A stretch of DNA of 41,641 bases from Candidatus Hydrogenedentota bacterium (GCA_030432675.1 JAUIMA010000003.1:1-41641); one strand, 5' to 3'; shown: positions 9,501 through 41,641, counted from the first letter of the stretch. A program made the numbers and translations. The notes: a model not told the origin generated them from the letters alone.

Positions 9501-10371
9501 GGCCCTGCTTGGTAACGCGCTCATGCAAATTGAACGGGCGGACGGTGGTCTCTTGGATGACGATAACGTGGGCACGTCCGATTGGCGACTGATCACCGAA
9601 GCCGATGGGCGGGTGCGCATCTTTACCGATGACGACAACTTCCTCCCGGTCGGCTCGTTCGGCGCCTTGCTGAAAATCACCTTCACCAACCTGACGGACT
9701 ACGTGGGCGCCTTTGGAACTGGTGCACGGCAACCAGAGTTCTTCCTCAGCATGCGCATGGATAACCGCCCCTACATCTCGCCCCAATCAGAAGGACAACC
9801 GTCCAGCACGAAGTTCTTCCTGTACCCTGGCGGCATTGCCCACGATGGGCGTGCACTTTCCATTGCTCTGGGCGAAAGCGACCTGGCATCCCCCGCGCAG
9901 TTTGTCGAGTTCCTCTCGGAAATCCCCGGCTTTGACCCCGAAGACGAGATCGCGCTCGACACCGACATGGATACCATCCCGAACTTCAATGACCCCGTTC
10001 CTCTGGATGAAGAGTTGCCGGCAAGTCGGGTAACGCCCAATCCCATTGATGTGGATGCGGACGACAACATCTTTACGCTTACGATTCGAAACAACTTGCT
10101 CGATAGTTTCGAATGGAATATCGACACAGCCTCCCTTCCCAGCTGGATTCCGGCGGCCAGTATTCGCTATGGCGCCGGTGCGACCAGCACAACGCAAATA
10201 CGAACCCTGCTGGCTCCGGGTGAGACCGAGGCCGTTCAATTCAGCGTCGACCGGACGGGCCTAACACCGGGTACGGCAATCACCGACTCCGTAGTATTCA
10301 ATATTACCAACAGTGAGTACGCCTTCATCGTACCGGAAAGTGTGTCAGTAACGATGGAGATAGCGCCATGA
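6550..10371 (+). CDS. Large lipoprotein with BACON/ASH-like beta-sandwich repeats and vWA domain
   Basis: Lipobox 'AATIISGC'. Repeated 'FGTT...L.L.NTG.G.L.W......PWL' units. vWA MIDAS 'VVLILDFTGSM' and 'DVRAVVFITDGKETV'. TSP3-like 'DTDMDTIPNFNDPVP' near the C-terminus. Confidence 0.85.
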   Translation: MAEWKSRVGQLALLLAATIISGCPVSVVTAPQLNASPAATDFGTTQTTRDLALENTGGGTLEWTAQEVTRVDVDSPWVAADVPWLTLSVASGAITTDLDHITLMASRTGLSSGLYTNTGVQITSNGGTVTVPVSLTVEAQLQVTPQRLALSATETSGTFSVVNNGTTPLSWTISYLTDPNDRNSTGTLPSGFTVNPASGTNQSLASTSINVTFPAGTDDFALLVDSASGQEVVTFSVGSALTQLLVSPTTLTLSIASNSETTTEQPASTLRLENVGNLPVSWTIDLSERINPNASPPLSADPILGTTQIGSTSEIAVRVTDPDTIIQGDGIYELAVRVGDSFQTVPIIVDVLPLPEITLALPPETEFLQPPVVETDLLDFGDDLVQDQFFVVNTGSRDSELFFQVTYDEQGQDNALIAAITPLRGNTNGSDRDYYLFDQQVYTDGVPVSVTINRNNLVEDLETRLITVRAFESNNFVSQLTAVAEKTIEIRVAKPPYTITGATNRARAPSMLRFVFSNRDELGQVIPLQSEADRERVAYEIFENEIALDLNETSQFLTFDYRGNVVLILDFTGSMYNAGTTGPNPLQPGDAVALMREAAKAFIDDLPPNFNLQIMYHTDRVPEERIIQRFTNDRTQLKDALDRFTVSPALFGDSDIVETLEMAIDSLVAEDPAGTLPFDDADVRAVVFITDGKETVSGNTVTGVDGLAEESRTRLYPVAYSPNGDPAPLADLIVSAESSGGYLYTAGSVRNLSTVFGTRSSMEVLATTSAIPNTAAFTIRNVGTSAFTYEITPDDSPWLGTVSLPEGNVNGGASQAITLTLDPTGIDANTRLRATVNVIASNGDEAEVVVHFLTTNAAATNIETTVRDETGTIWEELNNQSVLTYTTPKEVDFQYLLSGTYRLPDDTIIEGPFQRNAVFTLGDPRIGQVSLRSAGIVEDLSTVDPEQRFRAEVYVYADYVPRNIRSFSFRFMPQAATDLSAANQALLGNALMQIERADGGLLDDDNVGTSDWRLITEADGRVRIFTDDDNFLPVGSFGALLKITFTNLTDYVGAFGTGARQPEFFLSMRMDNRPYISPQSEGQPSSTKFFLYPGGIAHDGRALSIALGESDLASPAQFVEFLSEIPGFDPEDEIALDTDMDTIPNFNDPVPLDEELPASRVTPNPIDVDADDNIFTLTIRNNLLDSFEWNIDTASLPSWIPAASIRYGAGATSTTQIRTLLAPGETEAVQFSVDRTGLTPGTAITDSVVFNITNSEYAFIVPESVSVTMEIAP

Positions 10372-10448
10372 GGGTGAGACGAGTCTTAGAACGGAAGAGC
10401 AGTCTGATGGCGGCACGATTGAGTCAACGTGATGATAAGGAGTATGGA

Positions 10449-23717: not shown

Positions 23718-25199
23718 TTATTCGCAGGCGATGACGTCAAGTTCAATTTGCCCGATAAAGGTAATGAGTTGGGCCCAAGCGCTGATGCTTCCGTTAAGCA
23801 ACTTAATGTGGGTTGCATCGGCCGTCTCCTGGCCCAGCGTCGGGTCCATGGGGTACCACTGTCCCCCCAGATACACTTCCGGCCAGGCGTGGTACCCGAA
23901 TCCGTTCAACACATCACTGTAAACCAGGCCAATGGCGATACGGGTCGGAATGTCCACGGCGCGGGCCAGGGCCGTATAGAGCACCGTATGATCATTACAA
24001 TCTCCCGTGCGTGTACGCAGCACATCCACCGCATTGGGCACACTCAGGACCGGTACCTTTTCGATCTCTTCATAGACCCAAGTGTAGAGCAACCGTGCCT
24101 TGCGGGCGGGATCACGTTCCTCCCCGACGATAGCCCGGGCTTCCGCCTGAATCACCGGGTGATCCGTCGCGACAAAGGCGTCTCCGCCCAGAAAGGCCGA
24201 CATATCCGCCGTAGTGTCCTCCGGTGCTTCTGCAGGAAACCCTTCAGGCTGCTGCATGGTCAACTGATCACCGTCTCGCAGTTGCCAGGGAGGATCGTGG
24301 GGAAACGCTGCTTCTGGTACACCGTTCACGCGGACGCGCAGCCGGGAGGCATCAATTCTTACGGGCTCGCCCGAAGGCACGATGGCCAGACTCTGAATCA
24401 AGTCGCTGTTGGCATCCGGAGTCTCCGCGTCAATCAATTCTTTCGGATCGATTTTTCGGAGGGTAAAACCGAAGGGTGTGCTGGCCTGCAGCACTTCGCC
24501 TGCAGCATCCACCCAGGCCTCACTGGTCATGGCTCCCAACACCGTCTCATAGACCCGCGCCTCCACGGACTCTCCACTGATCTCCAGGGTGTCCATACGG
24601 GTACAGGTAATGGTGGCATCAGCAATTTTCATGGCCACGGGGTCGAAGGATTCCACGGTGGTCGACTCCCCCACCTCCAGAATCGGCATCGAATCAGATG
24701 GCAGTCCCATTCCACTGCCGAGAACGAGGCGGGTGTCTATGGGCAAATCCAAGGGAACCGCTTCCCCACCTGTATCGAGAAAGCCTTTCAAATGCCCATC
24801 GGAAACGGTGCCGCGTAACCCCATGTGGGTATCTGAGGCGTCCATCGAAAAGTCGAATTCTGCCCGCTCCCCGGACTGTGCCGTCCAGGCATCGCCCGAT
24901 ATATCCATTCCGACGACAGTACCGAATAACGCGGTCTCCAGTGAGGCGTCCAGCAACATCCGATAGCCTGGTATACCGTCCCGAAGTGCTTCTTCACTCC
25001 GCATCCGCAGGTACCCGACACGGGAATCCCCGTTCAGATATATCCCCATCCACTGGTCACGGGCGACAAAGGCCCCCGCCCCGCCAGAGGCTTCCGGGCT
25101 TGCGCTCCCCCCGAATTCCCGCTGAAGGAATAGTCCCATCATAACGAGCCAGAAGCCCGTTATGAGGAGCGCGATTATACGACGTTGCTTCCGCAACAC
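23718..25199 (-). CDS. Transglutaminase-like domain protein, membrane-anchored
   Basis: N-terminal TM helix. Catalytic triad context 'RTGDCNDHTVLYTALARAVDIPTRIAIGLVY', 'FGYHAWPEVYLGGQWYPMDPTLGQ'. Confidence 0.9.
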   Translation of the reverse strand: MLRKQRRIIALLITGFWLVMMGLFLQREFGGSASPEASGGAGAFVARDQWMGIYLNGDSRVGYLRMRSEEALRDGIPGYRMLLDASLETALFGTVVGMDISGDAWTAQSGERAEFDFSMDASDTHMGLRGTVSDGHLKGFLDTGGEAVPLDLPIDTRLVLGSGMGLPSDSMPILEVGESTTVESFDPVAMKIADATITCTRMDTLEISGESVEARVYETVLGAMTSEAWVDAAGEVLQASTPFGFTLRKIDPKELIDAETPDANSDLIQSLAIVPSGEPVRIDASRLRVRVNGVPEAAFPHDPPWQLRDGDQLTMQQPEGFPAEAPEDTTADMSAFLGGDAFVATDHPVIQAEARAIVGEERDPARKARLLYTWVYEEIEKVPVLSVPNAVDVLRTRTGDCNDHTVLYTALARAVDIPTRIAIGLVYSDVLNGFGYHAWPEVYLGGQWYPMDPTLGQETADATHIKLLNGSISAWAQLITFIGQIELDVIACE

Positions 25200-27919
25200 T
25201 TCTTGTACTTCTTACCGCTACCGCAGGGGCACTTTTCATTGGGACCCACTTTAGTCTCGGCGCGGATAGGTTTGGGTTTGGCCTTGGAGCGAGCCTTCGT
25301 TTTGACCGTAGACTCAGAACCCGTTGCGGGCTCGGCCTCATCGGGCCCAGCCAAATCGAAACGAGTCGTGTCAAAGCTCGCAAAGCTACTGTCGGCCTGT
25401 TTATCGGCCGCCACATAGCTATATTGATTCAGCTGAGCGAAGGGGTCCTCCTGCTGGGTCAGGGTTCCGCGTTGAATACTCGCAGCCCGCTTCTTGCGGA
25501 CGTCCGGGTCGGTCAGGCGGAACAACGTGGTAATTACGCTTTCCTCAATGGACTTCACCATGTTCTGGAACATCTCGAAGCCTTCCTGCTTATACTCAAG
25601 CAGGGGATCTTTCTGACCGAAGGCACGCAGCCGAACGGATTCCCGGAGATAGTCCATCTCATACAGGTGGTCGATCCACTTGTCATCTACGGCGCGCAGG
25701 AGCGCCATGAGCTCGAGGTCATGCACCCGTTTCCGGGCAATCCCCGCAAAATCAATCGTCGACTCGTCGCCACCGATTTCCTGACGGAAACTCTCACGAA
25801 TTTCTTCGGCCATGGCATCTTCACGACGCTGATAGTCGGCAAGCACCTGGTCATAGAGTTGGGCCACCAGATCGCCGCCCTCTTCCACCTCAAGGGTTAC
25901 GGGGAAGTGAAAGAGCACTTCCATGCGTTTTTCCAGGCCTTCGAGATCCCACTCCGCAGCAGGCACCGCCTCCGGCGCGTACTCGTCCACGGTATCGGCG
26001 ATGGTATTTTCAAACATCTCACGGAGCTGTTCCGTCACATCATTGTCTTCGAGCACGTTGCGGCGCATGGCATAAATATACTTACGCTGCTTGTCCATCA
26101 CCTGGTCATAGTCGAGCACGTGCTTCCGACTCTCGAAGTGAAACTCTTCGACCTGACGCTGGGAACGTTCAATGGTACGGGTCACCATGCGCTGACTGAG
26201 AGGCTCTTCATCCATCTCTTCGCCGCCCATGAAATCAACGAGTTTCTTGACGCGATCGCCGCCAAACAAACGGGCCACATCATCTTCCAGACTGACATAG
26301 AAGCGGGTCGTTCCCGGGTCACCCTGGCGACCGCAACGACCCCGAAGCTGGTTGTCGATGCGTCGGGACTCGTGGCGTTCTGTACCGATGATGAACAGGC
26401 CGCCATTTTCCCGGATACCTTCCGCGAGCTTGATGTCGGTACCGCGACCGGCCATATTGGTGGCAATCGTGACGGCACCGGCTTTACCCGCGTTAGAGAT
26501 GATTGCCGCTTCCCGCTCATGGTGCTTGGCGTTCAGGACCTGATAATTTTCGACGCCCTCTTCCTCAAGCATACTGGCAAGCAACTCGGATTTCTCAATC
26601 GACACCGTGCCCACGAGGGTCGGGCGATTCTGCTCCTGTACCTTCTTGATATCATTGATGACGTAGCGGAACTTACCCTTCTCGGTAGCGAAAATAAGGT
26701 CTGTTTCGTCCACGCGAGCGGCAGGCAGGTTGGTGGGAATCTGGGTCACCTCGAGACCGTACACCTTGTCAAACTCGGCGGCCTCTGTGACCGCCGTACC
26801 GGTCATGCCGGCCAGTTTGTCATAGAGACGGAAGTAGTTCTGATAGGTGATGCTCGCCACAGTCTGAGACTCAAAACGAAGCGGTACGCGCTCTTTGGCT
26901 TCCAGCGCCTGGTGCAGGCCGTCCGAATAGCGCCGCCCCTCCATGGTGCGCCCCGTGAACTCATCGACGATAAGCACTTCGTTTTCTTTGACCATGTAGT
27001 CTTTATCGCGCTTGAAAAAATTGTAGGCTTTAAGCGACTGCTCGATCATATGGGCCCAACCGAGGGTCTCGTCGGTGTAGAGGTCTTCAATGCCCAGCAG
27101 GCGCTCCACCACTTCCATCCCCTCATCGGTAAGGATAATGTGGCGCTGCTTCTCATCCATTTCGAAGTGTTCATCCTTGCGGAGTTTCCGCACGGCTTCG
27201 TCCACTTTCAGATAGAGGTCGCTGCTCTTCTCCGGACGGCCCGAAATAATCAGGGGTGTACGGGCTTCGTCAATAAGAATGGAATCCACTTCGTCGACGA
27301 TGGCGAAGTTTAATTCGCGCTGCACCCGGTGATCGGGGTGTTTCGCCATGTTATCGCGCAGATAATCGAAGCCAAACTCGTTGTTCGTACCGTAGGTAAT
27401 ATCAGCGCGATAGCCCACTTTTCGTTCGAGGTGGTCCATGTCCGATTGAATCAGACCGACGGTGAGACCCAGGAATTCATAGATGGGGCGCATCCACTCC
27501 GCGTCACGCTGGGCGAGGTAATCGTTCACGGTGACCACGTGGACACCACGACCGGTGAGTGCATTGAGGTAAACAGGAAGAATACCCACGAGGGTTTTAC
27601 CTTCACCCGTGGTCATTTCCGCGATGTTGCCCCGGTGCAGCGTCGTGCCGCCAATAATCTGCACATCGAAGGGGCGCATGCCCGCGACTCGTTTCGCCGC
27701 TTCCCGTGCCACAGCGAAGGCTTCGGGAAGCAAGTCTTCCAGACTGTCCCCGTCGGCAAGGCGCTGCTTGAACAGCCCCGTCTGCTTGCGCAATTCATCG
27801 TCCGTCATGCGGGTGACGCGGGCTTCCTCTGCACATACGGCGGCAACCACGGGCAGGAAACGCTTCACTTCACGGTCTTTTTCAGTCCCGAAAAGGGCTG
27901 TCAGTACTTTCTGAAACAC
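25175..27919 (-). CDS. secA: Preprotein translocase ATPase SecA
   Basis: 'MTTGEGKTLVGILPVYLNAL', 'VDEVDSILIDEARTPLIISG', 'NMAGRGTDIKL', 'GGLFIIGTERHESRRIDNQLRGRCGRQGDPG', C-terminal zinc motif 'CPCGSGKKYKKCC'. Confidence 0.99.
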   Translation of the reverse strand: MFQKVLTALFGTEKDREVKRFLPVVAAVCAEEARVTRMTDDELRKQTGLFKQRLADGDSLEDLLPEAFAVAREAAKRVAGMRPFDVQIIGGTTLHRGNIAEMTTGEGKTLVGILPVYLNALTGRGVHVVTVNDYLAQRDAEWMRPIYEFLGLTVGLIQSDMDHLERKVGYRADITYGTNNEFGFDYLRDNMAKHPDHRVQRELNFAIVDEVDSILIDEARTPLIISGRPEKSSDLYLKVDEAVRKLRKDEHFEMDEKQRHIILTDEGMEVVERLLGIEDLYTDETLGWAHMIEQSLKAYNFFKRDKDYMVKENEVLIVDEFTGRTMEGRRYSDGLHQALEAKERVPLRFESQTVASITYQNYFRLYDKLAGMTGTAVTEAAEFDKVYGLEVTQIPTNLPAARVDETDLIFATEKGKFRYVINDIKKVQEQNRPTLVGTVSIEKSELLASMLEEEGVENYQVLNAKHHEREAAIISNAGKAGAVTIATNMAGRGTDIKLAEGIRENGGLFIIGTERHESRRIDNQLRGRCGRQGDPGTTRFYVSLEDDVARLFGGDRVKKLVDFMGGEEMDEEPLSQRMVTRTIERSQRQVEEFHFESRKHVLDYDQVMDKQRKYIYAMRRNVLEDNDVTEQLREMFENTIADTVDEYAPEAVPAAEWDLEGLEKRMEVLFHFPVTLEVEEGGDLVAQLYDQVLADYQRREDAMAEEIRESFRQEIGGDESTIDFAGIARKRVHDLELMALLRAVDDKWIDHLYEMDYLRESVRLRAFGQKDPLLEYKQEGFEMFQNMVKSIEESVITTLFRLTDPDVRKKRAASIQRGTLTQQEDPFAQLNQYSYVAADKQADSSFASFDTTRFDLAGPDEAEPATGSESTVKTKARSKAKPKPIRAETKVGPNEKCPCGSGKKYKKCCGSNVV

Positions 27920-28170
27920 TACGCTTGGTTCTCCGCCCGTAATGGGCCTTGTTATCTATTCCAACCACACCGGGATGTGGTGTCGGTTTTATGCTATCTG
28001 TTACTATCGCATGATACCAAAGGGGGAAGAAGTAATTCTATGAACGCCCGGGCCAGAGGATCGAGAAGTAGTCTATTATGAAGGACTTCCATCAACACAC
28101 GCGGGGGCTTGTCCCCAATATCCACCACATGACGCCGCCAAATCGAATAACTATTCCGGGGGGCCACTGA

Positions 28171-30333
28171 ATGTTCTTCCCGCTCTATCTCGCCGCATTG
28201 GGCATTTCTGCCGGTATTATTGGTGTTTTCGGCCGACGTCTGCTGGTGCTGGCCGGTTATGTGCCCGACTTCGATGCCGGCCTTTCAGCGACCCTCATGA
28301 TCGCCTGTGGCTATCTTCTGGTGCAAATCGCCTATGGTGCCCTGATCCAGCTCATTAAGCCCCACAAGGGCACGGGGCCCCATATCACCGAGATTCTTTC
28401 TCTCTTGTCGGCCATCGTCCTGATTCCCTACCTCCTGAATGTCGTCATTCCCTGGCCCCACCCAAAGCTGGCGGAGATGGAACCCCTCATTTTTCTGGCT
28501 GTTTTTGGGGGACTACACGGATTTTTCAAACTGGCAACCCTCTTTGCGGCCACCCAGGCGCCACCCGCAACCCAGGTTCGCGTCGTACCCTACATCATCG
28601 TGGGCGCCCTCGCCTTGTTCGGCGTGCAACACGGTTTTCAGACCTGGTATACCTCCCTTACCGGCGTTCGCAGCGCGGCACTGCGCCCCCAGGAACCCAA
28701 GCGAGTCGGAGATACCTACGCCTGGGGCCGCGCCCTGACGGAAGGGCTCCAATACACCCTGGACGCGCGCCGTGCCGAGGGCGAGCACTTGACCCTGCGC
28801 TGGGCCAACCCCGATGAAGAAGGGCAATCCGTGGAAACCATCCACGTGACGGGAACGTTCCTGGACGAGGCCGGCGAGACCTTGCCGGGTGTCTGGAAGA
28901 ATGAGGTAACACTACAGACCCACAACTGGACCACCCAACGTATCCCCGAGGACGCCATCCCCACGGGCGCAGCGCAGGTCGCCCTTTCCTGGAGTCTGGA
29001 AGATGAATCGGAATGGGTGCGCCAAACGGGACTACGCCCGACCCATTCTTCGGGAACGACGCTCCTGCTCTCGGGACCCTATGTGCACAGCGCCCCTGAG
29101 GCCTTCGAGCGGCCGAACCTTGTGATTGTCCTGGTGGAAGGGCTCGGGGCAGACCACATGGAGCTGTTTGGTTACAGCCGCCAGACCAGCCCCGGTCTCA
29201 CCGCCCTGGCAAAACGCAGTTCCGTCTGGGAAAACACCTTTACGGCTTGCCCGGATGCCTTCAGCACAGCCGTCACCCTCATGACCGGGGTATCGCCCCT
29301 GGTGCACGGTGTGACAGACACGCAGCGCCCGGCAATTCCCGAAAACCTGGCGACCCTGCCTGAGCGCATGCGGGAAGCGGGCTACGTCACCGTCGCGTTC
29401 ACTGAAGGGGAAGGAAGCGATGGCGAAGACCTCGTTTTTGGCAGTGGATTTGAGCGGGGTTTCGAACTCTTTAATCCCGCCTATCCCGAAACGGCCCGTA
29501 GCACGGCCGATGATGGCCCCGCGCCACTTGTCCCCCAAGGTTCCCGCGTAACCCTTCAACGGGCTGCGGACTGGATAGCCAGACACCGGGAAGAAGAGCG
29601 CTACCTGGTTTTCATTCGCCTCCGGGAACTCAGCAAACCCTTTGAACTGAAACGCTACGGGCCCGGCTTCATCAAGCCCTGGGAAAACGTCCCTCAGCCC
29701 ATTGATGTCTATGACACGGCTGTCGTGGATGTGGATAAGCAACTGGGGCTCTTCACCGAGCGACTTCGTCAGATGGGCAGCTTCGAAGATACCTGCCTGG
29801 TCTTCACGTCCCCTTACGGGCTGGATTTCTCCGAGCCCGACCGGGGAGTATGGCGACGGGGCGGCCCGGGAGTTCCCCGTTTGACCGAAGAGAGCATTCG
29901 CGTCCCCCTTATCATGTCACTCCCGGAAGGCATCGGCCGCACGCGACGCCCCCTCGTTTCCCTAAACGCCGTGGGTCGGACCCTCGGTGATTTCGCGGGG
30001 GTGAGCCTCTCCCATAGCGCCGATGTCCGCAGTCTGCTGGATTACACGGCAGGCGAGGAACCGGTCACAATTATGGGCGATCCCTTGGCGATGTCCCTTC
30101 GCACGGAAGAGTGGCGCTACAACTGGCAGTCGGGCCTTCGCGCCAGCGACTTCTCCGATACGGGGTCCGCTACCACCTTGGGGCTCTACAATATCGCCGA
30201 CTATCACGAGACGTTTCAGAATAAGAACTACACTTCCCGTGAGCCCGGCGTGGCCACCCGGTACCGCGAGCAACTTGCCACCTATGTACACGGATTCGCC
30301 GAAGCCGCAACCGTAAGCTCTTCATCACCCTGA
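28171..30333 (+). CDS. Inner-membrane sulfatase/LtaS-fold protein with substituted active-site motifs
   Basis: About four or more N-terminal TM helices. Sulfatase landmarks 'VIVLVEGLGADHMELFGYSRQTSPGLTALAKRSSVWENTFTACPDAFSTAVTLMTGVSPLVHGV' and 'VFTSPYGLDFSE...ESIRVPLIMSLPEG'. Confidence 0.8.
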   Translation: MFFPLYLAALGISAGIIGVFGRRLLVLAGYVPDFDAGLSATLMIACGYLLVQIAYGALIQLIKPHKGTGPHITEILSLLSAIVLIPYLLNVVIPWPHPKLAEMEPLIFLAVFGGLHGFFKLATLFAATQAPPATQVRVVPYIIVGALALFGVQHGFQTWYTSLTGVRSAALRPQEPKRVGDTYAWGRALTEGLQYTLDARRAEGEHLTLRWANPDEEGQSVETIHVTGTFLDEAGETLPGVWKNEVTLQTHNWTTQRIPEDAIPTGAAQVALSWSLEDESEWVRQTGLRPTHSSGTTLLLSGPYVHSAPEAFERPNLVIVLVEGLGADHMELFGYSRQTSPGLTALAKRSSVWENTFTACPDAFSTAVTLMTGVSPLVHGVTDTQRPAIPENLATLPERMREAGYVTVAFTEGEGSDGEDLVFGSGFERGFELFNPAYPETARSTADDGPAPLVPQGSRVTLQRAADWIARHREEERYLVFIRLRELSKPFELKRYGPGFIKPWENVPQPIDVYDTAVVDVDKQLGLFTERLRQMGSFEDTCLVFTSPYGLDFSEPDRGVWRRGGPGVPRLTEESIRVPLIMSLPEGIGRTRRPLVSLNAVGRTLGDFAGVSLSHSADVRSLLDYTAGEEPVTIMGDPLAMSLRTEEWRYNWQSGLRASDFSDTGSATTLGLYNIADYHETFQNKNYTSREPGVATRYREQLATYVHGFAEAATVSSSSP

Positions 30334-31261: not shown

Positions 31262-34027
31262 ATGGGTCTCTTAACGTTCGGCATGCTTATGGCAGCAGGG
31301 CTGCTGACCACGCCGGGGGCCGTTCAGTATATAGACCTGCAAGACGGATGGACCGTGGAAAATACAGGGGCCTGGCAGAGCCGGGTAGATCATCGCAACC
31401 TTCTCGCCATGCACCACCCCTGGACGCCCAGTGAAGCCAATCGATTCTCGATGGCCCAGAAGACAGTCGTCGTTCCCACCGATTGGGGAAACACGGTAAC
31501 CCTTCATTTTTACAGCAGCGACGACTACCACGGTGTCCCGGTAAAGGACACACCGGGTACGGGCTTCGTGGGGCACCGCCGGAAACAAATCCTGGTCAAC
31601 AGCAATCCGATCTGGACCCACGATGTGGCGGATGCGGTTGTGCCGGGCGTGTCCTCCACCTATCAGGTAACGATCCAAGTTCCGGAAAGTGATCGTTCCC
31701 TGCGCATCGCCTTGCTGGCCTATGACGCCGTGGCCTCAAGCACGGTGTTGAAGGAAGATTTCTATACCCCCCGCAAACCCGGCATGGGTCGGGAAGATGA
31801 CCCCGAGGCCAATCGCTTTCGGACCACCATCTACTGGGGCGATCTAACCCTGGTTTCCGGCAATTCCGCGACAGGCTCCCCACCGAGACCCTCGGAACGA
31901 CTCGTCTTGAAGCGTCACAACCGCTATTGGCCACCTGCCCCGCCCGAATCAAACGTGTGGACTAAGGAAAAGACGAAGTTCACCCTGTCCGCTCCCGGCG
32001 GTCTCCCCAAGGCGGGCTTCCCACTCGAAATGGGTATTCCCTTGCCGCTCGGTGCGGCGGATTCGCCGGAGTCCCTTCGCTTTACACGAGGCGACGGGCA
32101 ACGCATTTATACGCAGAAGCAGGTCACTGACAATTGGCCCGACGGCTCTCTTCGATGGCTATTGGCCCAGATGCCTGTAAAGCCGTCTACCGGGGATATC
32201 GCGCTGGCTTTTACGAAGGATGGGGCGTCCCCCGCAGGCTCCGTTAAGGTCGTTGAGCGCGACGCCGGGTTGAAAGTTTCCAGCGGAGCAGTATCGTTGG
32301 AGCAGGGTGGCGTCGATCCGATTGACACCCTATCCTACCGTGGGAAGGTGGCCTTCACCGGCCTGCAACTCGCGCTGGAAGTGGCCGGAAAGGTTATCCC
32401 CGGCACCAATGACAACGGCCAGGTTGTAGAAGAGGGCCCCTTTCACACCCGGCTGGTTATGGAAGGGCGCTTTGAAGGACTGGATACCGCTTACGGCACC
32501 TACGCCCTTTATTGCTCGGTCTACCACGATCTACCCTATGTGAAATTCTGGTTTCGCTATTTCAACGACACCCCATCCCCCCAATCACTCTCTCAGCTGA
32601 ACTTCACACTGGCACTCCCCGCTCCCCTGGACACCCTCACGCTCCCCCACGGCACGGTGGATGCTCCCTTGGAGATGGACTTGCAGCAGCCCGACGTATA
32701 TCGGGCCAATGGAGCTTCCCATGTATTAAGCAAGCCGTTTTTTCTACAGTGGTCCCAAGGGGCCCTGGTGGTCAAAGATTTCGCCCAACTCCACCCGAAA
32801 GGTCTCCAGGTGGACGCGGAACGGCTAACCCTTTCGCTGGTGGCCGGAGGCCCGTCGCCCGTGACCTTCGCGCCGGGCGAAGCCAAGAGCCATGAAATCT
32901 GGCTGGCACTGGGCCCCACCGATGGGGCACAACTCGCCGCCACCGTGGCGCGACCACCCTTATTGATAAATGCCAACTATTTCAATCGTACCGGAGTTTT
33001 CGGACCGGCTGCCCCCGTGGGCGCAGACAATCCGTGGGTCACCTTCGCCCAAAATACGTATGGAGAAAAGTCGCTCTCGGAGATCGGGATGCACACGGGT
33101 CTGCGTCACTACCCCGATGAGCCCTATCTCGGACGTAGCGGTGCCTGGTCCAACAACTACAATGGGCGACTGAGCAGTCTTTGGAGTACGTGGCTCGCTA
33201 CGGGAGACCGTGCCTGGTTTGACCGCGCGGCAGCCTTCTCCAGCCACCTCATGGATGTGGCAATTGTCCATTCGGAGGTCCCCGGACAGGACTGGCTGGG
33301 TGCGCTCCATGGCCCTGGCGCCAATCACGTGGCGGGCCCTTGGAATCCCCTTTTACGCGGCGAGGGCTTCGCCCACTTTGCCCGATGGACGGGCAACCCG
33401 GAAGCCGAATCGGCCTTCCTGGGAATTGCGGACTTCTGTGTACGGACCCATGCCGGACGCCGCGGTCCCAACGTGCGCCATTGGGCAGGCCCTTTTTCGA
33501 GTATCGTCGCGGCCTACCGGGATACGGGTGAAATCGGCCTGCTGGAAGCGGGTACGGAGCGGCTGACGGGGATGCTTCGACAGGTGGACCGCCGACGGGG
33601 CACGTGGATCGACTGGCACGGGGACAGCACCTACCCCGGAAATATTCCGTGGATGACCGCCCAATTGGCCCAGCCACTCTATACGTGGTACCACGAAACC
33701 GGCGATGTGGAAGCCGCCCAACTCCTCGTGGGATTGGCGGAATCCCTCATCTGTGAGAATACGCCGTGGGATGGGCCAGGTCGCATGGATACCTACTCCC
33801 CCGCGCCGTGGTTTCCCAAAACGACCGCTTATGACCCCTTTATCATCCCCCTGATTGGCGCCGCCTACGAACTGACGGAAGACCCCTTCTTCAAAGAAGC
33901 GGCGTTAGCCCAGTGGAAGCGTTGGCGGGATCAGCCCGAGTTTCAATCGGCATTCAACCTGTCGTGGCACTTGCCCTGGCTCAATGCCGTGCTGGCAGAA
34001 TGGGATGCGGAGGCTTCCGAGCCCTAA
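31262..34027 (+). CDS. Exported PcRGLX/YetA-like (exo-rhamnogalacturonan lyase-type) protein
   Basis: Good SD (AGGAAGG). 'FPLEMGIPLPLGAADSPESLRFTRGDGQRIYTQKQVTDNWPDGSLRWLLAQMPV' matches the RIFT-barrel N-domain of this family. C-terminal alpha/alpha-toroid-like region. Confidence 0.65.
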   Translation: MGLLTFGMLMAAGLLTTPGAVQYIDLQDGWTVENTGAWQSRVDHRNLLAMHHPWTPSEANRFSMAQKTVVVPTDWGNTVTLHFYSSDDYHGVPVKDTPGTGFVGHRRKQILVNSNPIWTHDVADAVVPGVSSTYQVTIQVPESDRSLRIALLAYDAVASSTVLKEDFYTPRKPGMGREDDPEANRFRTTIYWGDLTLVSGNSATGSPPRPSERLVLKRHNRYWPPAPPESNVWTKEKTKFTLSAPGGLPKAGFPLEMGIPLPLGAADSPESLRFTRGDGQRIYTQKQVTDNWPDGSLRWLLAQMPVKPSTGDIALAFTKDGASPAGSVKVVERDAGLKVSSGAVSLEQGGVDPIDTLSYRGKVAFTGLQLALEVAGKVIPGTNDNGQVVEEGPFHTRLVMEGRFEGLDTAYGTYALYCSVYHDLPYVKFWFRYFNDTPSPQSLSQLNFTLALPAPLDTLTLPHGTVDAPLEMDLQQPDVYRANGASHVLSKPFFLQWSQGALVVKDFAQLHPKGLQVDAERLTLSLVAGGPSPVTFAPGEAKSHEIWLALGPTDGAQLAATVARPPLLINANYFNRTGVFGPAAPVGADNPWVTFAQNTYGEKSLSEIGMHTGLRHYPDEPYLGRSGAWSNNYNGRLSSLWSTWLATGDRAWFDRAAAFSSHLMDVAIVHSEVPGQDWLGALHGPGANHVAGPWNPLLRGEGFAHFARWTGNPEAESAFLGIADFCVRTHAGRRGPNVRHWAGPFSSIVAAYRDTGEIGLLEAGTERLTGMLRQVDRRRGTWIDWHGDSTYPGNIPWMTAQLAQPLYTWYHETGDVEAAQLLVGLAESLICENTPWDGPGRMDTYSPAPWFPKTTAYDPFIIPLIGAAYELTEDPFFKEAALAQWKRWRDQPEFQSAFNLSWHLPWLNAVLAEWDAEASEP

Positions 34028-34935
34028 TCGCTCTCTGGGGCGCGTTGACTCCATAGACCCGGCAGGGCGGCGCTCGCAAGCAATACCCCGATGAGTATCC
34101 AGCCGAGGTTACCTGTCCATGGCGGTGTCTGCTGTTGGAAGAGATGCTCCCAGATACCGCAGGCCTGACCTGCGATGCCGCCCAACGCGAGGGCACACAG
34201 GCCCAGGTGCTCCGTGCGGTGCTTTATCGTGCCCAGCACCAGACTCAAGACCATGCACAGGACAATGGCCCGCAACTGGGTCTCCCATAAGCCGCTGTAG
34301 TCCCCAAGTTCCCGGTGCCAGCTATAGAGGAGGGGAAAAAACCACAGCCCCCAGCACAGACCGACAAGGAGATGGGCAGGCAGGGCCCCCAGGGGCATGA
34401 GCCGAGGCAGCAAATAGCCGCGCCAACCGAACTCTGAGCCCAGGGCAATTAAGGCGAAGAGCGTTGCGCCAAGCCCGATGCTCACCAATGGATAGGTTAC
34501 GAAGATAATCCCCGGTGCCAGTGCGCGCACGTTGGGCGCCAGGGGCTCGGTGGAAACGGCCTCCACCTCATTCAGCAGGCCCGCCAGGTTCCATTGGGGA
34601 TAGGTCAGACCGAGCAGGGTCGCCACGGTATAACTGAGTGCAAAAACGGCCAGGGGCATGAGCAGCACCCGAAGGGCAGCCACTCTTGAGACTGGCCAGA
34701 GTTTCGCCGGCGGTGATGTCTCGGCGGACGGCACCATGAAACCAGCCGCGAGGGCGGCCAGCGCGGGAATACCCATGAGCAACACTTGCGCCAGGTATTG
34801 AAAGGCGTTGGGCGACTGAAAGGCCAATGCGCCCTCGGCCAGCAGAACAAAAGTCAGCACGAATATGAGTAGAAAACTCAGGCCCAGATAGAGGGCAATA
34901 CCTTTGAAATCCATCAAGAACGGTTCACTTCCCAT
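34024..34935 (-). CDS. CPBP (CAAX/Rce1-like) family membrane protein
   Basis: Polytopic. 'IALGSEFGWRGYLLPRLMPLGALPAHLLVGLCWGLWFFPL' matches CPBP motifs 1 and 2, with Ser in place of the first motif Glu. Confidence 0.8.
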   Translation of the reverse strand: MGSEPFLMDFKGIALYLGLSFLLIFVLTFVLLAEGALAFQSPNAFQYLAQVLLMGIPALAALAAGFMVPSAETSPPAKLWPVSRVAALRVLLMPLAVFALSYTVATLLGLTYPQWNLAGLLNEVEAVSTEPLAPNVRALAPGIIFVTYPLVSIGLGATLFALIALGSEFGWRGYLLPRLMPLGALPAHLLVGLCWGLWFFPLLYSWHRELGDYSGLWETQLRAIVLCMVLSLVLGTIKHRTEHLGLCALALGGIAGQACGIWEHLFQQQTPPWTGNLGWILIGVLLASAALPGLWSQRAPESD

Positions 34936-37900
34936 TAATTTCTGGCCCGCGGTGGCGGTGGTGCGACGGCTCCCGCTGCCGTTCCCTCTTCCACATCCAC
35001 GGATGCGGCACCGGTAACCCGTTGATACGCCACCAGGCCGTTGGCCGCGAGTTTCATGACAACGGGAAAGGCGGCATCGGGGTCACTCAGTGAAAATACG
35101 ATATTCTGACTCTTGAAGGGCGCCACGGAAACGGTCGCGCGGCGGGGCGCCACGGTAAATTCGGGAAAATTCCGCCCTTCGCCCCAGTGCTCAGGCGATG
35201 CGATGGCATCCAGATAACCCTTGGCGTAAACACTGCTGTTGTTGCGGATAGAGACCCGAATCTGGGCGCCATTGCGGCTCGTTTCCATCACATAGGGTGC
35301 TTCATTGGTCATGAGTACATCGCGGTAGGTCTGCCGCTCAAAGACCGTTTCGGCGACGACCGCCATCTCGTCTTCCATATCGGGAGAGCGTGCCAGTTGA
35401 ATCGTCTCCACCTGTTGCTCGCCCGCCCCAAGGCTATAGTAGACGCTCTGGGGTCCGAATGTCAGGCCCGAGGTGGCCTCGAGATTGACCGTTCCCTGCA
35501 CCGTGCGGTCGGTGGTGTGGTTACTCACGACCACTTCGATGGCGGGGGTATCGCCGGTCAAGGAGCCCCGCAGCAGGAGGCCAATTGGCATTTTCCGGAC
35601 CGGTGCCGCACCCCGCCGCTCGTCCCAGTAACGGGTTTCCAGCACGCCGTGGGGCTCGGCCTCCCGACCAAGGCGGGCAAGTCCGTCGAGGGGTTTGGTC
35701 ACGTTGGGTAAAAACCACAGAGGCAATACCTGAAAGCCGTTCGCCTCCAGCGAGACACCGCCACCGGCGACCGACCAGGGCGTCTGAGGCCGCTCCAATA
35801 CATCGGTGCCCTGGGCTTCCAACATGCCGGTACTGCTTTGCAGGGTACCCGACCAGCGCGCACCCGTCGGCTCCCATGCGAGGAGGGTATACCCATCGCG
35901 GGGATGAAAGGCGGTACGGGTATTGGTGGTCGTGGGGAATCCGGCCGGCTTCAACCCGCCCACCCGCACTCCTGGTGGGCTCACCTCGAGGAAGGCCTGC
36001 GTGGCGGGCAGCTCCCCCGGATGCATCTCGGTCCGCGCCACCACGGGCTTCACGGTGAATCGGGCGGCCATCTCGGGCACCCGGGCGGACCGCCAATCGC
36101 CCTGGAAGGGAAAAATTCCATAACGAAAGCGCGTCACGTCGAGCAATTCGGCCCCATCGCCCCCCTTTCGTTCCAGGGGGGTGCGATGCTGCAACCCCAG
36201 CAAGAGCCGTCCATCTTTCTGTTGGGACACGGAAAGGGTGCCGGGAAAGAGCAGGGCATTTCCACGGGCGGGTTCCTGCTGAATGCGCGCAGGCACGTAG
36301 GCCGAGGGAGGCAGCAGGTAACGCTGCCCCGTGCGCACAGCGCGGGTGAGTTGGTCGGCAAGATCGGCGCTCTGGGCAGGGGTAAGGCCACCGAGCAACA
36401 GGGTCGGCACCGGAGCCACCCCGTCGGGCACCTGCACATCATGAAGGAGAAGGCGCGCACCGCTGGGAATCCGGTCTACATAGTCCTGTAAGGTCCCTTC
36501 GGGAACCTGAGCGAGCAACGGCCCACAAAATCGATTTTGATCCGGCGTGCCCAAGACGACCCGCATGCGATAACCGGCACGAAGGTAGTCGTTGCTATCC
36601 TGCTCGGTCGTGCTGTCGGTCCACAGAAAATCAGGCTTCTCCGGGGCGTCGGATTGGAGGATGCTGGGAATACCGCGGGAAATAAGGGCCTGCTGCAACT
36701 CACGGGCGGGCCGTTCGAGTTGCTCGTGACCATAGACGATGATCGTGGGCTCCCAGGGCACAACGCCCCCCGATCCCACCTGTATGGCGTCATTGGCACT
36801 CAGGGCTACCCACTCATTAGCGGGATAGGGCACCGTGCCCCCCACGTTTTCGCCGCCCCGGGTGCGCAACACAAAGTCGTCCTGTCCCCGAGCCCCCACC
36901 ACGGTACCGAAACGCTCGCCCACAAGGAAGCTGGCACCGTCGGGCCGAAATGCAAAGGAAGCCGCGGCCGCTTTTCCAGAAAGGTTTACGCCATCCAACG
37001 TGGTCTCACACTCGACCCACGGAATGCCCGCATAGAGCGAGTAGTCTTGCGTCAGCGTGCCGCCGCCCAGCGGTGTCTCCACGCGAATGCGCTGGCGGAA
37101 GGCGGTAACTTCGGCCTTAATAGAAGAAGGGGCGGGACCTCGACTACTGGGAGGGCCCGTCCAGAGTTCCTGGGCACCGCGATTCTCACTTTCACGCTCC
37201 GTAAGCAACACGATCTCATTGAGCGGTCCGGCCGCAATCTCATCGCCCGAAACCTTATCCAGCAGCGAACGTATCGCACCCGTCGCCGGGTCCACAAACA
37301 GCGCCAGGTGTTCGTTTTCGATTTGCATGTCTTCCGTGACTAATGCGCGGGATGCCCGCTCGGCGGCCTGCACAAAATAGGTGGCGTAGCCGTAAGGCGG
37401 CAAGTCTTCCGCCAGGAAGTCGAGACGCTGTTCCCCCTGATAGGCCTCGGCGACATGGGCGACCGGACTCCCCGCCTCGTTTACGAGATTGAGTCCGGCA
37501 TTGGGCGCTACGGGCAGCTGCACCGACACAGGAACGGTGCCACGACTACCTGTTGGATTAACGACTACGAGGGCATCAAAAAGTCCCTGGTTGAGGGGGA
37601 CCGTGCCCGCCGTGTCCACCAGCCCCGCCAGATACTCACTGCTGCGCCGGAGACTGTCATCGGTCCATTCGGCCACTTCGCGGTAGGCTGCAAGGGCATC
37701 GAGGACATGCTCTTCGTCTGCTGGCACACCCAATGTTTCGGGGGTGCTGTAGTAAAGCAACTGACGCCACGCGAACTCCATGGCGCTGTGGGGATAAACG
37801 GCCCCCTGCAAACTGGCGAGCGTGGCCAGGCTTTCCGCGTCTTCCAACTGGCGGGCCAGCTCGGTGTGGACCCGTTGAAGCGCGGGCTGACTGAGCAGGG

Positions 37901-39794
37901 CACCCGGCTGTCCGAGGTTCAGGTTGACCGCCAACGCAGGAATCGCAGCCTTCACCTGATCGCTCGCCGCACCTACTTCTTCAAAAAAGGCCGCTGCACC
38001 GCCATCGTCCAGACGGATGCGGGGAAAGGCCCGGGCCAGTGAATCGACATTGCCCCGGTAAAAAGGCTCGGGCGGCGCCACCACGTTTTCGACAACCAGC
38101 ACATCGGTGGGCAGGGACATGTCGGCCAATTCCCGACGCTGAAGGGCAACCGCTTCCCGCAAGTCATCCAGGGTAGCGGGACCGACCGACTGCTGTTTTC
38201 GGCGCAAGTAGCGGGTATTTCCGGTGAGATCGTAGAGCCGGTTCATGGGGGCTATCCCCGGTGCCGTCAGATCGGTGACGATACCTTCCATAGGCGTCAT
38301 CCGCAGGAGCTGGGGAGTCTGGAGGGCAATGCCGGGCCGTTCCCAGGCCAGATAGTGGGGTGTGGTGCTATTGAGTTGGCTGCCCGCCATATGGAGACCC
38401 AACTGGAGATTCCGCCACAGGGCGGTCCCGCCCACGATGCGCTCATCGATAGGGGCATAGTTTCCCTGGACGGTGACGGCCCCCCGTTGGGCGGCATTTT
38501 CCAGGCTATCGCGCAAAGCCGGCATCGCCACGTACGGCTTGTACCAGGACCGGGCGTAGCCCAGGTCAAAGCCGTAACCCAGGGCCTGTTGGGAAAAAAG
38601 CAGCTGGCGCTTTACGCTGTCCAGATAGACTTCGTCGGTAGGCGGCATTTCGTCGATGGCGCTGGTATGGCCTGTAATCAGCCGAACGATTCCATCGCCT
38701 CCTCCCCCCGCGGTAACGGGCACCTGGGCAGTAAACTGTGAGGTGTCATCCCCACTCGCCAGGCGCACCGAGACGTCGATGGTGCTCCCCGCCGTGGCCG
38801 CGCCAATCGGGAGCGCGATGGGCACCTGGCGGGTCTCGCCGCCATCCAGGGCCTGGATTTCGACCAAATCAGGGAGGGGCATTCCGGGAACCGTCACAAT
38901 GGCTTCCACGGGTTCGGAGATATCCTCCAGCGGATTGTGGATAGTCAGCAAGACATCTTGCTTCAGGTCACCGGCAAAGCCCGAGACGGTGCCCGCGTTT
39001 TCCAGTTTCGGCACATAGAGCAATCGTCTCCCGATAGGCCGCGCATGGTGGAGCGCCACGGACAAAGCAAAGCCACTGGTCTTACGCAGTCGGGGCCGAT
39101 TGGCCATGGCACCCGCCGTCAACTGGGGCGTGCTGAGCCCCCGCGCCTGGGCCATGGCATTGTAATCCGCCCCGGGCACCTCGAAAACCACCAAGTTGTT
39201 TCCAGCGCGCAGGCCGATAGCGAGATAGTCTTTCCCCACAGCCTCCAGCGGGCCGGGCTCGTATTCTGCCACGGGAAATCCGTTTGCCCAGGCGCGCACT
39301 CCCAAGGGAGATTCAATGTCGAGCAGTATCTGGGTGAGTATGGGCGAGTCGACATAAAAGGCGGCATAGGCCACGCCGGAAACATCGTCGGGAAAGAAGG
39401 GGGCCAGGTCCAGCTCAGGCCCCGTCGTACCGGCCTCTTGCCAGAGGGCATCTTCCCCGCCCTCCCGGGGAATCCGCATGAGGTGGCGGGGACGAAGGCG
39501 GGCAATCGGGATATTGGTCGCCATAAAGTCCGTGTCGCTCAGGGCCGGGGCATCATCCCGAATCGCTGCCAGTACGCCACCCGGCACATCGGGTTCGAAA
39601 GGTCCACACACAAGCCAGTGGGCGATATATCCCCGCTCCAGAATAGGTGCGAGGCCCTCGTACTGCTCCTGCGCCGACCCCGTATGAGCACTGAGGAGCG
39701 TTAGGAGCAACACCACGTGGGATGCTATGCGAAAGGGACCTTTCACGTCAGCGGGACTCCGTGGCTTCGGCAGCGCCATCGTTCTGAGCGACAT
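34935..39794 (-). CDS. 1619-aa exported protein with GH38-like (alpha-mannosidase) regions
   Basis: Signal peptide. C-terminal region 'IENEHLALFVDPATGAIRSLLDKVSGDEI' typical of GH38 C-terminal domains. Degenerate N-terminal match around 'HTSAIDEMPPTDEVYLDSVKRQLLFSQQ'. Confidence 0.65.
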   Translation of the reverse strand: MSLRTMALPKPRSPADVKGPFRIASHVVLLLTLLSAHTGSAQEQYEGLAPILERGYIAHWLVCGPFEPDVPGGVLAAIRDDAPALSDTDFMATNIPIARLRPRHLMRIPREGGEDALWQEAGTTGPELDLAPFFPDDVSGVAYAAFYVDSPILTQILLDIESPLGVRAWANGFPVAEYEPGPLEAVGKDYLAIGLRAGNNLVVFEVPGADYNAMAQARGLSTPQLTAGAMANRPRLRKTSGFALSVALHHARPIGRRLLYVPKLENAGTVSGFAGDLKQDVLLTIHNPLEDISEPVEAIVTVPGMPLPDLVEIQALDGGETRQVPIALPIGAATAGSTIDVSVRLASGDDTSQFTAQVPVTAGGGGDGIVRLITGHTSAIDEMPPTDEVYLDSVKRQLLFSQQALGYGFDLGYARSWYKPYVAMPALRDSLENAAQRGAVTVQGNYAPIDERIVGGTALWRNLQLGLHMAGSQLNSTTPHYLAWERPGIALQTPQLLRMTPMEGIVTDLTAPGIAPMNRLYDLTGNTRYLRRKQQSVGPATLDDLREAVALQRRELADMSLPTDVLVVENVVAPPEPFYRGNVDSLARAFPRIRLDDGGAAAFFEEVGAASDQVKAAIPALAVNLNLGQPGALLSQPALQRVHTELARQLEDAESLATLASLQGAVYPHSAMEFAWRQLLYYSTPETLGVPADEEHVLDALAAYREVAEWTDDSLRRSSEYLAGLVDTAGTVPLNQGLFDALVVVNPTGSRGTVPVSVQLPVAPNAGLNLVNEAGSPVAHVAEAYQGEQRLDFLAEDLPPYGYATYFVQAAERASRALVTEDMQIENEHLALFVDPATGAIRSLLDKVSGDEIAAGPLNEIVLLTERESENRGAQELWTGPPSSRGPAPSSIKAEVTAFRQRIRVETPLGGGTLTQDYSLYAGIPWVECETTLDGVNLSGKAAAASFAFRPDGASFLVGERFGTVVGARGQDDFVLRTRGGENVGGTVPYPANEWVALSANDAIQVGSGGVVPWEPTIIVYGHEQLERPARELQQALISRGIPSILQSDAPEKPDFLWTDSTTEQDSNDYLRAGYRMRVVLGTPDQNRFCGPLLAQVPEGTLQDYVDRIPSGARLLLHDVQVPDGVAPVPTLLLGGLTPAQSADLADQLTRAVRTGQRYLLPPSAYVPARIQQEPARGNALLFPGTLSVSQQKDGRLLLGLQHRTPLERKGGDGAELLDVTRFRYGIFPFQGDWRSARVPEMAARFTVKPVVARTEMHPGELPATQAFLEVSPPGVRVGGLKPAGFPTTTNTRTAFHPRDGYTLLAWEPTGARWSGTLQSSTGMLEAQGTDVLERPQTPWSVAGGGVSLEANGFQVLPLWFLPNVTKPLDGLARLGREAEPHGVLETRYWDERRGAAPVRKMPIGLLLRGSLTGDTPAIEVVVSNHTTDRTVQGTVNLEATSGLTFGPQSVYYSLGAGEQQVETIQLARSPDMEDEMAVVAETVFERQTYRDVLMTNEAPYVMETSRNGAQIRVSIRNNSSVYAKGYLDAIASPEHWGEGRNFPEFTVAPRRATVSVAPFKSQNIVFSLSDPDAAFPVVMKLAANGLVAYQRVTGAASVDVEEGTAAGAVAPPPPRARN

Positions 39795-40902
39795 GCGCAG
39801 TCTCCGCCGGGTAGTAATCGCGCAGGGCGTTTACCGGGCTGTAGGCACGGTTCGCCTGAAACTGGAGTACAAACAGAATAAGGCACAAGATGGTGGTGAT
39901 GGCCACGGTGGGCCTCCCCCACGCTTCAAAACGCATGAGCCACGCACTCAGGGCGGCCAGGGCCACGCCACACATCGCCAGGGGAAAGAAAAGCTGTCCC
40001 GCGTTCTCCAGGGTCACATAGTTAATCGGAAGGGCACCGGGGTACACTCGGAAGAACAACACGGCCAACACGGCGAAACGGAAGGGAGCCGATTTCACCT
40101 TAAACAGTGCCCAACCCAGCACAAGCATCACCCCAATACCCCATGCCCACCCCTGCCAGGCGTGGGCTTCAGCGTGGGCCACCGTTTCGGGCAACAGTCC
40201 AATGGGATAAAACACGAGCAAGAGGGGTCCCACGATGGAATCAAGCGTGGGCATCTGGGCGTAGAGAATATCAAGATGGAACCAGTTCGCCACCATGGTC
40301 ACCCCGAGGAATGGTAGCAGGCGGAGCCAATTGCGTTCCTCACTATCGCCGACAAAGAACTCCATCAGAATCAAGACGCCCAACAGGGCCGCATTCACGG
40401 CGAAAATACCGTTTGCGACGGCGAAGCACAACAGCGCGATGGCATAGGGCGCCACGCCCCCCTCTTGACGTAATCGCGTGTACGCCAGCAGGGTGGCCAA
40501 CGCCATGAAGGCAGCCATACCGTAGTAAATGCCCGTGGCGCTGAACAGCACCTCCGTCTTAACGGGATGGGCCATGAGGAAGGTGCCCGCCAACGAGCCC
40601 AACCAGGCCGGTCCGCCCACCAGCCGCCGGGTGAGCAAGAACACCAGCGCCATGCAACCAAAGAGAATGGGTAAGGCCAACACGGCCACCTCGACAATTG
40701 GACTACGTGCAAATCCGTCGAACCACATGGAAAGCCATGGCCACACGGCCGGATAGTCAAAATCCCGAGTGGTCATGCCCCCATTGGGCAGCACAATAAG
40801 ACTCGAGCCGTAGACCAGGATTAGATAGAAGGTCATGGTGACGAAAAAGAATCCGGCACCGGGCTTCTTGCGGGCTTGTTGGCTGTCGTGTGTATCATCC
40901 AT
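39748..40902 (-). CDS. Polytopic membrane protein, possibly GT39/PMT-like
   Basis: Listed ORF 39748-41295; start trimmed to 'MDDTHDSQQARKKPGAGFF' (40902). At least eight hydrophobic segments. Confidence 0.7.
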   Translation of the reverse strand: MDDTHDSQQARKKPGAGFFFVTMTFYLILVYGSSLIVLPNGGMTTRDFDYPAVWPWLSMWFDGFARSPIVEVAVLALPILFGCMALVFLLTRRLVGGPAWLGSLAGTFLMAHPVKTEVLFSATGIYYGMAAFMALATLLAYTRLRQEGGVAPYAIALLCFAVANGIFAVNAALLGVLILMEFFVGDSEERNWLRLLPFLGVTMVANWFHLDILYAQMPTLDSIVGPLLLVFYPIGLLPETVAHAEAHAWQGWAWGIGVMLVLGWALFKVKSAPFRFAVLAVLFFRVYPGALPINYVTLENAGQLFFPLAMCGVALAALSAWLMRFEAWGRPTVAITTILCLILFVLQFQANRAYSPVNALRDYYPAETAHVAQNDGAAEATESR

Positions 40903-41079: not shown

Positions 41080-41238
41080 ATGGACACGGGGCATGACGCG
41101 CTGGAATCTTGGAAGAAAACGCACGAACCGGAGTACCGGGTCGCGCGGCACAGCCGGAGAATCTACATGAGTCGTTGGGGAGAGAGGGGTTGCGGCCTCT
41201 CCGAAACAAAGCCCCCTCATCGGGCACATGACCAATGA
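41080..41238 (+). CDS. 52-aa basic small ORF (candidate)
   Basis: 'MDTGHDALESWKKTHEPEYRVARHSRRIYMSRWGERGCGLSETKPPHRAHDQ', preceded by GGGAG about 9 nt upstream; in frame with listed ORF 40876-41238. Confidence 0.3.
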   Translation: MDTGHDALESWKKTHEPEYRVARHSRRIYMSRWGERGCGLSETKPPHRAHDQ

Positions 41239-41244
41239 GGGGGC
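41211..41244 (-). terminator. Stem-loop terminator for the leftward EF-hand gene
   Basis: GCCCCCTCAT / ATGAGGGGGC perfect 10-bp stem; on the minus strand followed by TTTGTTT. Confidence 0.7.
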
Positions 41245-41266: not shown

Positions 41267-41641
41267 TTAACGCTGGGGGCGCCGTCCGAACGCAACCAGG
41301 GTCAACAGCGTAAGACTGAAGAGGAAGAACTCTTCTACTTTGTCGGCCAGGGTCTGTGCAACGCCCTGTTTCGAGGGCGCGCAACCCGGCGTCGTTACTT
41401 CGACGCGGGCCTCAAGCTCTGCCTCCGACAGAAAGCCATCGCTGTTGGTGTCCAGCGCATCAAACTGGGTGGTTGTCACCGCAGACAAGGACGCCATGGC
41501 CTCTGCCAATGACAGCTGCCCATCATTATCCACGTCCGCAACAGCGAACAGGTTCAAGAGCGCCTCGGCGGCGGCATCCAGCGTCACTTCACCTTCACCT
41601 TCACCTTCACCTTCACCTTCACCTTCACCTTCACCTTCGCC
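41267..41641 (-). CDS. EF-hand protein C-terminus with (Gly-Glu)n linker and C-terminal TM/Arg-Arg tail (5' end outside window)
   Basis: Frame is open to the window edge: GEGEGE...VTLDAAAEALLNLFAVADVDNDGQLSLAEAM...DTNSDGFLSEAELEARV...GCAPSKQGVAQTLADKVEEFFLFSLTLLTLVAFGRRPQR. Confidence 0.8.
   Translation of the reverse strand, partial: GEGEGEGEGEGEGEGEGEVTLDAAAEALLNLFAVADVDNDGQLSLAEAMASLSAVTTTQFDALDTNSDGFLSEAELEARVEVTTPGCAPSKQGVAQTLADKVEEFFLFSLTLLTLVAFGRRPQR
41591..41638. repeat. Hexanucleotide tandem repeat (ACCTTC)8 = (GAAGGT)8 on the coding strand
   Basis: Eight perfect contiguous copies read directly from the sequence; encodes (Glu-Gly)n. Confidence 0.97.

Follow-up and report, generated by a model that had tools for sequence, protein, structure and literature searches.

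A conserved three-gene cassette of Candidatus Hydrogenedentota with a putative GT-C-fold membrane protein, a degenerate GH38-like protein and a CPBP pseudo-protease

A contig of 41,641 nucleotides (nt) from Candidatus Hydrogenedentota bacterium (GCA_030432675.1, JAUIMA010000003.1:1-41641), called the window below over its whole length, carries three minus-strand genes that run in one shared direction from 40902 to 34024 and encode a polytopic membrane protein (MEM), a very large protein resembling alpha-mannosidases of family GH38 (GH38-like) and a CPBP-like protein. We found that other genera and families of the phylum have this order too, and that the GH38-like and CPBP proteins keep their hydrolase folds and have lost key catalytic residues. 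At rather less than an even chance, and by analogy with a staphylococcal system, our preferred reading is that the cassette is an ancestral Hydrogenedentota envelope-glycan module, in which the pseudo-GH38 protein would bind glycan and the pseudo-CPBP protein would act as a membrane scaffold. A preliminary description of the window had drawn an overlapping cassette of three genes, and the open reading frames (ORFs) lie where it placed them:

40902..39748, minus strand: MEM, polytopic membrane protein, 384 amino acids
39794..34935, minus strand: GH38-like ORF in its longest form, 1619 amino acids
34935..34024, minus strand: CPBP-like ORF in its longest form, 303 amino acids

All three ORFs are coding, because in a comparison with the congeneric genome G003 (protein identity 58-69%) the differences were in excess at third codon positions and no stops were found. 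The differences per codon position were 0.35/0.22/0.63 for MEM, 0.24/0.17/0.58 for the GH38-like gene and 0.32/0.16/0.57 for the CPBP gene. This pattern, together with the frames open across relatives, rules out a pseudogene reading.

The overlaps as first drawn (47 nt between MEM and the GH38-like gene, 1 nt between the GH38-like and CPBP genes) hinge on the starts of the longest ORFs, and they did not hold up. The first junction is as follows:

39746..39750, minus strand: MEM stop and GH38-like start, TGAcGTG; orthologue starts lie at or just past the MEM stop

The window sequence across this junction reads CCGCTGAcGTGAAAGGTCCC. The GH38-like ATG overlaps the MEM stop (ATGA) in G003, G002 and G009, so that this stop-start is present in two families, and in two genomes of family f7 (G020 and G025) the ATG lies 1-2 nt past the stop. 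The ATG at 39794, which had put the MEM stop inside the GH38-like gene, lies within MEM, has GGAG upstream and would add 16 residues. The GTG at 39746 appears to be the preferable start, because with it the signal peptide lines up with that of the orthologues, and the conserved RGYIAHWLVCGPF block follows at the distance seen in them. At the second junction, TAATG is indeed present at 34935; however, it is probably not the CPBP start, since the family N-terminus (MDxKGI) corresponds to the ATG at 34914, 20 nt past the GH38-like stop. In relatives the GH38-like/CPBP spacing is mostly about 24-340 nt, and the 1-nt overlap is not conserved. With the preferred starts, both junctions would be tight, with zero overlap. 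Thus, of the coupled translation first proposed, a close MEM/GH38-like coupling stands as conserved, because the orthologue starts sit at or just past the MEM stop, whereas the 1-nt GH38-like/CPBP overlap does not.

The GH38-like protein had been described as a degenerate, exported, mannosidase-like protein, and this description agrees with our profile and fold comparisons, export being predicted from its N-terminus:

34935..39746, minus strand: GH38-like protein, predicted to be exported, about 1603 amino acids from the GTG at 39746
39672..39746, minus strand: predicted Sec signal peptide, MKGPFRIASHVVLLLTLLSAHTGSA, read from the sequence
37995..38705, minus strand: equivalent of the GH38 catalytic domain (residues about 364-600), from profile alignment to 3lvt/6lz1 and column counts
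36993..37322, minus strand: Glyco_hydro_38C match (residues 825-934; Pfam E = 2.7e-6)

A hydrophobic stretch occupies the place of the signal peptide in the orthologues too. The protein keeps the alpha-mannosidase architecture. Like SpGH38 of Streptococcus pyogenes, the Enterococcus faecalis protein 3lvt and fission yeast Ams1, it has catalytic-like, helical-bundle and beta domains, to which extra N-terminal beta domains and a C-terminal extension are added (about 1600 residues vs about 900-1130). The profile of 17 orthologues matched 3lvt (E = 1.1e-20) and Ams1 6lz1 (E = 1.7e-20) over the catalytic, helical and beta regions, Pfam GH38C, mid and 38N matches were found across the orthologues, and the top Foldseek matches of the predicted fold were GH38 structures (3lvt, E = 4.8e-14). 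In the AlphaFold model of residues 40-1200, most of the catalytic-like domain scored below 50 in the predicted local distance difference test (pLDDT), and so the model was not used to read a pocket.

The zinc ligands of SpGH38 are His13, Asp15, Asp125 and His351, Asp125 being the nucleophile (PMC2815779). Unlike the GH38 alpha-mannosidases, all 17 aligned orthologues have lost three of the four (the equivalents of His13, Asp15 and His351). The HxD motif is gone (GHT, GAR, GQR and similar), and NHPHD of the helical bundle has become xSxPxx. The nucleophile column is unconserved (D in eight, N in five, E in two, G and S in one each; Glu485 in the window). Where Ams1 has GDGGGGPT, the segment of the acid/base Asp232, the family consensus is ESVVSPPEP in a loose part of the alignment. 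As a control, canonical GH38 paralogues in the window's genome keep the HxHxDxxW and DxFG motifs. Outside the cassette, a separate GH38-like subfamily of family f5 (L050-L054) keeps DVFGH and misses HxD; its genes are usually followed by a gene of 210-250 amino acids whose function is not assigned (cluster c14).

The CPBP protein shows a similar combination of a kept fold and lost residues:

34024..34914, minus strand: Rce1-like CPBP pseudo-protease (Pfam PF02517, E = 2.5e-7), preferred start ATG 34914
34420..34437, minus strand: motif 1, SEFGWR where EExxxR is expected, from the alignment to MmRce1
34339..34341, minus strand: motif 2 position, Phe199 in place of the catalytic His173, from the same alignment

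PF02517 scored above its cut-off in the window protein and in 8 of 12 orthologues, and the family profile matched the glutamyl intramembrane protease MmRce1 (4cad) with E = 1.9e-6. Thus, the Rce1-like domain is retained. The catalytic residues of MmRce1 are Glu140, His173, His227 and Asn231 (PMC12067869). The first motif Glu had been reported as lacking, and we found S167 at its position, with F199 at that of His173. Unlike in MmRce1, both residues are lost in 28 of 29 family members (Glu140 to S, N, G, L or other residues, His173 to F, L or others), while Glu141 and the Arg and Trp of motif 1 are retained. His227 and Asn231 of motif 3 are lost as well (LGGIAGQ in the window vs HGAFNGQ in L114). 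The sole intact member of the 29 (GEELGWR, WHAP, HGAFN) is encoded at L114:5933-7411 on the minus strand (G042). Because L114 keeps the catalytic motifs, the losses are probably derived; L114 may also be of use for timing the loss of activity. Three other CPBP proteins in the window's genome, examined as a control, keep EE and His.

MEM had been called possibly GT39-like, which agrees with our results at the level of the fold and not of the family model:

39748..40902, minus strand: MEM, assigned to the GT-C fold from the predicted structure of orthologue L077 and Foldseek
40753..40788, minus strand: first extracytoplasmic loop of MEM (PNGGMTTRDFDY), from a 44-sequence alignment

None of 14 members had a PMT-type Pfam match, MEM matched no Pfam family, and the MEM profile found nothing useful among Pfam and PDB sequences; a structure-based fold search was therefore needed. 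The AlphaFold model of the full-length orthologue L077 (core pLDDT about 80) matched STT3, ArnT, PglB, Emb and PMT in Foldseek at a probability of about 1.0, with E from 4e-3. Judged by this model, MEM is predicted to be a GT-C-fold protein with a transmembrane GT-C core, like ArnT, PglB/STT3, PMT/GT39 and the TMTC-like proteins with tetratricopeptide repeats (TPRs). In addition, TPRs are found in proteins of the phylum that are weakly similar to MEM, one of them with a PMT_2 match. In GT-C enzymes the first juxtamembrane helix carries the catalytic Asp at its tip (PMC12041525). Most MEM relatives resemble them in a loop-1 Asp within a P-L/M-G-R-D-Y/F motif, present in most MEM proteins of the phylum in the alignment, and in an HPxKxE-like motif. 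However, the window's genus differs from GT-C glycosyltransferases in having no clear loop Asp motif and no C-terminal domain. The window protein reads TTRDF four residues later than the relatives' P-L/M-G-R-D, and the motif with its Asp is absent from its three congeners. In addition, the C-terminal soluble domain of most relatives (about 510-540 amino acids) is missing throughout the genus. MEM orthologues at E <= 1e-25 occur in 57 of the 68 genomes of the phylum, many of which have no GH38-like or CPBP gene, and none was found on plasmids.

The order MEM, GH38-like, CPBP is found in at least 8 genomes from four family-level lineages (f1, f3, f4 and f5), and so it is not unique to the window's genome, as the refuting case of the preliminary description would have had it. 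All three genes stand in order in the four genomes of one genus (G000-G003). In G004 and G008 the order is spread over two contigs with consistent ends, in G009 MEM is cut by the contig end, and in G036 a small opposite-strand gene lies between MEM and the GH38-like gene. Partial arrangements occur in about ten further genomes. For instance, GH38-like and CPBP genes are in tandem in G005 (MEM inverted about 4 kb away) and G017; MEM adjoins the GH38-like gene, CPBP not being there, in G012, G018, G020, G025, G027 and G034; the same two genes are separated by a gap or a small gene in G013 and G063, again with CPBP not there; and MEM adjoins CPBP in G064. The remaining genomes have GH38-like or CPBP genes alone. 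A single, pattern-limited scan of about 85,000 species gave named matches all from Hydrogenedentota, the others being labelled 'uncultured bacterium'. Because the order is shared across genera and families, the cassette is ancestral and not specific to the window, and the association of the genes is beyond chance. The cluster is ancient and partly dissolving, with the MEM/GH38-like pair tightly coupled.

The nearest working analogy, which we do not take as a homologous system, would be SpdC-SagB of Staphylococcus aureus, in which a CPBP protein with dispensable protease residues is bound to a glycosidase (PMC10482373). As with SpdC (LyrA) and SagB, a CPBP-fold membrane protein and an extracytoplasmic glycosidase-type protein would meet at an envelope glycan, the link here being gene adjacency alone. 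The host of SpdC-SagB is Gram-positive, a GT-C protein is added here, and no homology of the partners is claimed. In our reading, MEM would in most of the phylum probably transfer sugar from a lipid-linked donor on the outer side of the inner membrane. The GH38-like protein, made in step with MEM through the tight stop-start coupling, would be exported by Sec and would be MEM's non-catalytic partner, binding or presenting a surface glycan; this is its most likely role because the mannosidase scaffold is kept and the chemistry lost. The CPBP protein would most likely be a scaffold or anchor for envelope proteins of the locus, because the Rce1-like fold and the Glu/Arg/Trp core are kept and the catalytic pair is lost. 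Physical association of the products is likewise something we infer. In the window's genus the cassette may be largely non-catalytic, judging from a MEM without the C-terminal domain and three congeners without the loop aspartate.

Several genes around the cassette bear on this reading:

41267..41641, minus strand: upstream exported protein truncated at the contig end; the C-terminal part that remains has a GEGEGE linker, EF-hand-like repeats and a GC-TM-RR tail
41211..41244, minus strand: terminator-like stem of 13 pairs followed by a T-rich tail, lying between MEM and the gene upstream of it
31262..34027, plus strand: PcRGLX-like protein (Pfam E = 7.4e-6), convergent, which adjoins CPBP also in G001 and G004
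28171..30333, plus strand: membrane sulfatase-superfamily protein (Pfam Sulfatase E = 3.6e-26; synteny)

Terminator-like sites occur in the region in a chance number overall; the stem at 41211..41244 is the strongest, and its place upstream of MEM suggests that the transcript starts at MEM. Homologues of the upstream protein precede the cassette in G001, G002, G021 and G035, and that of G035 (cluster c17) matches CFI_box_CTERM (E = 1e-13). On the other side, secA is divergent from the sulfatase-superfamily gene (25175-30333), and this pair neighbors MEM, GH38-like or CPBP genes in L040, L041, L066, L101 and L108. The neighborhood is therefore old, since several families share the secA-sulfatase-cassette arrangement of the window. 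Meanwhile, a gene of roughly 225-280 amino acids without a Pfam match (cluster c6; L094, L095, L086, L092, L037 and L093) faces MEM in convergent orientation in many genomes of family f5; in G036 and G063 it separates MEM from the GH38-like gene. Farther away, at 6550-15083 on the plus strand, two successive large ORFs (1273 and 1571 amino acids) have the look of exported multi-repeat proteins that include a VWA-like segment; the two overlap by 4 bases, since the second starts at 10368 and the first ends at 10371.

Some results weigh against the envelope-glycan module. The Foldseek support for MEM (E 4e-3, TM-score about 0.4) comes from a model of the orthologue and not of the window protein, and SagB is an active, unrelated N-acetylglucosaminidase, whereas the GH38-like protein appears inactive. 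In addition, GH38-like and CPBP genes are at separate loci in G013, G015, G021 and G026. Among 38 high-quality genomes, 13 have both genes, 8 only the GH38-like gene, 4 only CPBP and 13 neither (Fisher p = 0.02), and for all 68 genomes p = 0.10; these tests ignore shared ancestry, and presence or absence was tallied by hand from whole-genome searches. The conserved co-occurrence that the preliminary description proposed to look for is thus found at moderate strength, as a loose link. An obligate three-gene system is ruled out by these counts, and the separate loci and moderate co-occurrence argue that the GH38-like and CPBP proteins do not form an obligate complex. Furthermore, the conserved order may in part come from the old secA-sulfatase synteny rather than from a machine. 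This leads to the main rival, residual synteny, in which three envelope genes with independent jobs are neighbors by descent in a slowly rearranging region near secA. We consider it a serious, if doubtful, possibility. It accords with the modest co-occurrence, with MEM occurring mostly without the other two, and with the genes standing apart in several families and the secA-sulfatase neighborhood common to some loci; however, MEM/GH38-like pairs stay tight across families, with ATGA junctions, at 22-35% protein identity, and neighbors outside the cassette turn over much faster.

The two other rivals concern single products. The GH38-like protein might be a re-tooled enzyme with a new metal-independent site (D450, R452, E555 and D564), its substrate being a glycan that MEM makes. 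These four residues and Q492 are invariant in the 17 orthologues, so the first four may leave room for sugar binding or such a site, and the position equivalent to the nucleophile is D, N or E in 15 of 17. However, the nucleophile column is not conserved, and the N-terminal beta domain (residues 45-205) is the most conserved part (mean pairwise identity 46%, 21 invariant positions vs 36% and 13 in the catalytic-like domain), so that we regard this explanation as improbable. Still further from likely is a role of the CPBP protein in sorting or maturation of the tailed surface proteins beside MEM (EF-hand GC-TM-RR and CFI-box-CTERM). Tailed proteins do lie upstream of MEM in G001, G005 and G021, the c17 homologue of G035 carries CFI_box_CTERM, and each genome has about one copy of the CFI-box DNA pattern; against this, the catalytic Glu and His are lost, most CFI-box genes are far from MEM (near it in only 3 genomes), and an exact CFI-box match is missing from the genome of the window itself.

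The envelope-glycan module could be extended to a surface glycosylation complex specific to the phylum, where a pseudo-protease scaffold and a pseudo-mannosidase that would read or hold the glycan accompany a GT-C transferase, a stable machine of the envelope made up largely of retired enzymes; we think this stronger form unlikely. Whatever the role, the 1600-residue protein should not be annotated as an alpha-mannosidase, nor the CPBP protein as a CAAX protease. If the reading is true, the whole phylum would have kept an operon where two hydrolytic folds serve without catalysis, and the SpdC-SagB theme of a non-proteolytic CPBP protein partnering a glycosidase would reach far beyond Firmicutes. 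It would also point to a conserved, unstudied surface-glycan system of Hydrogenedentota, for which MEM would be a near-universal marker.

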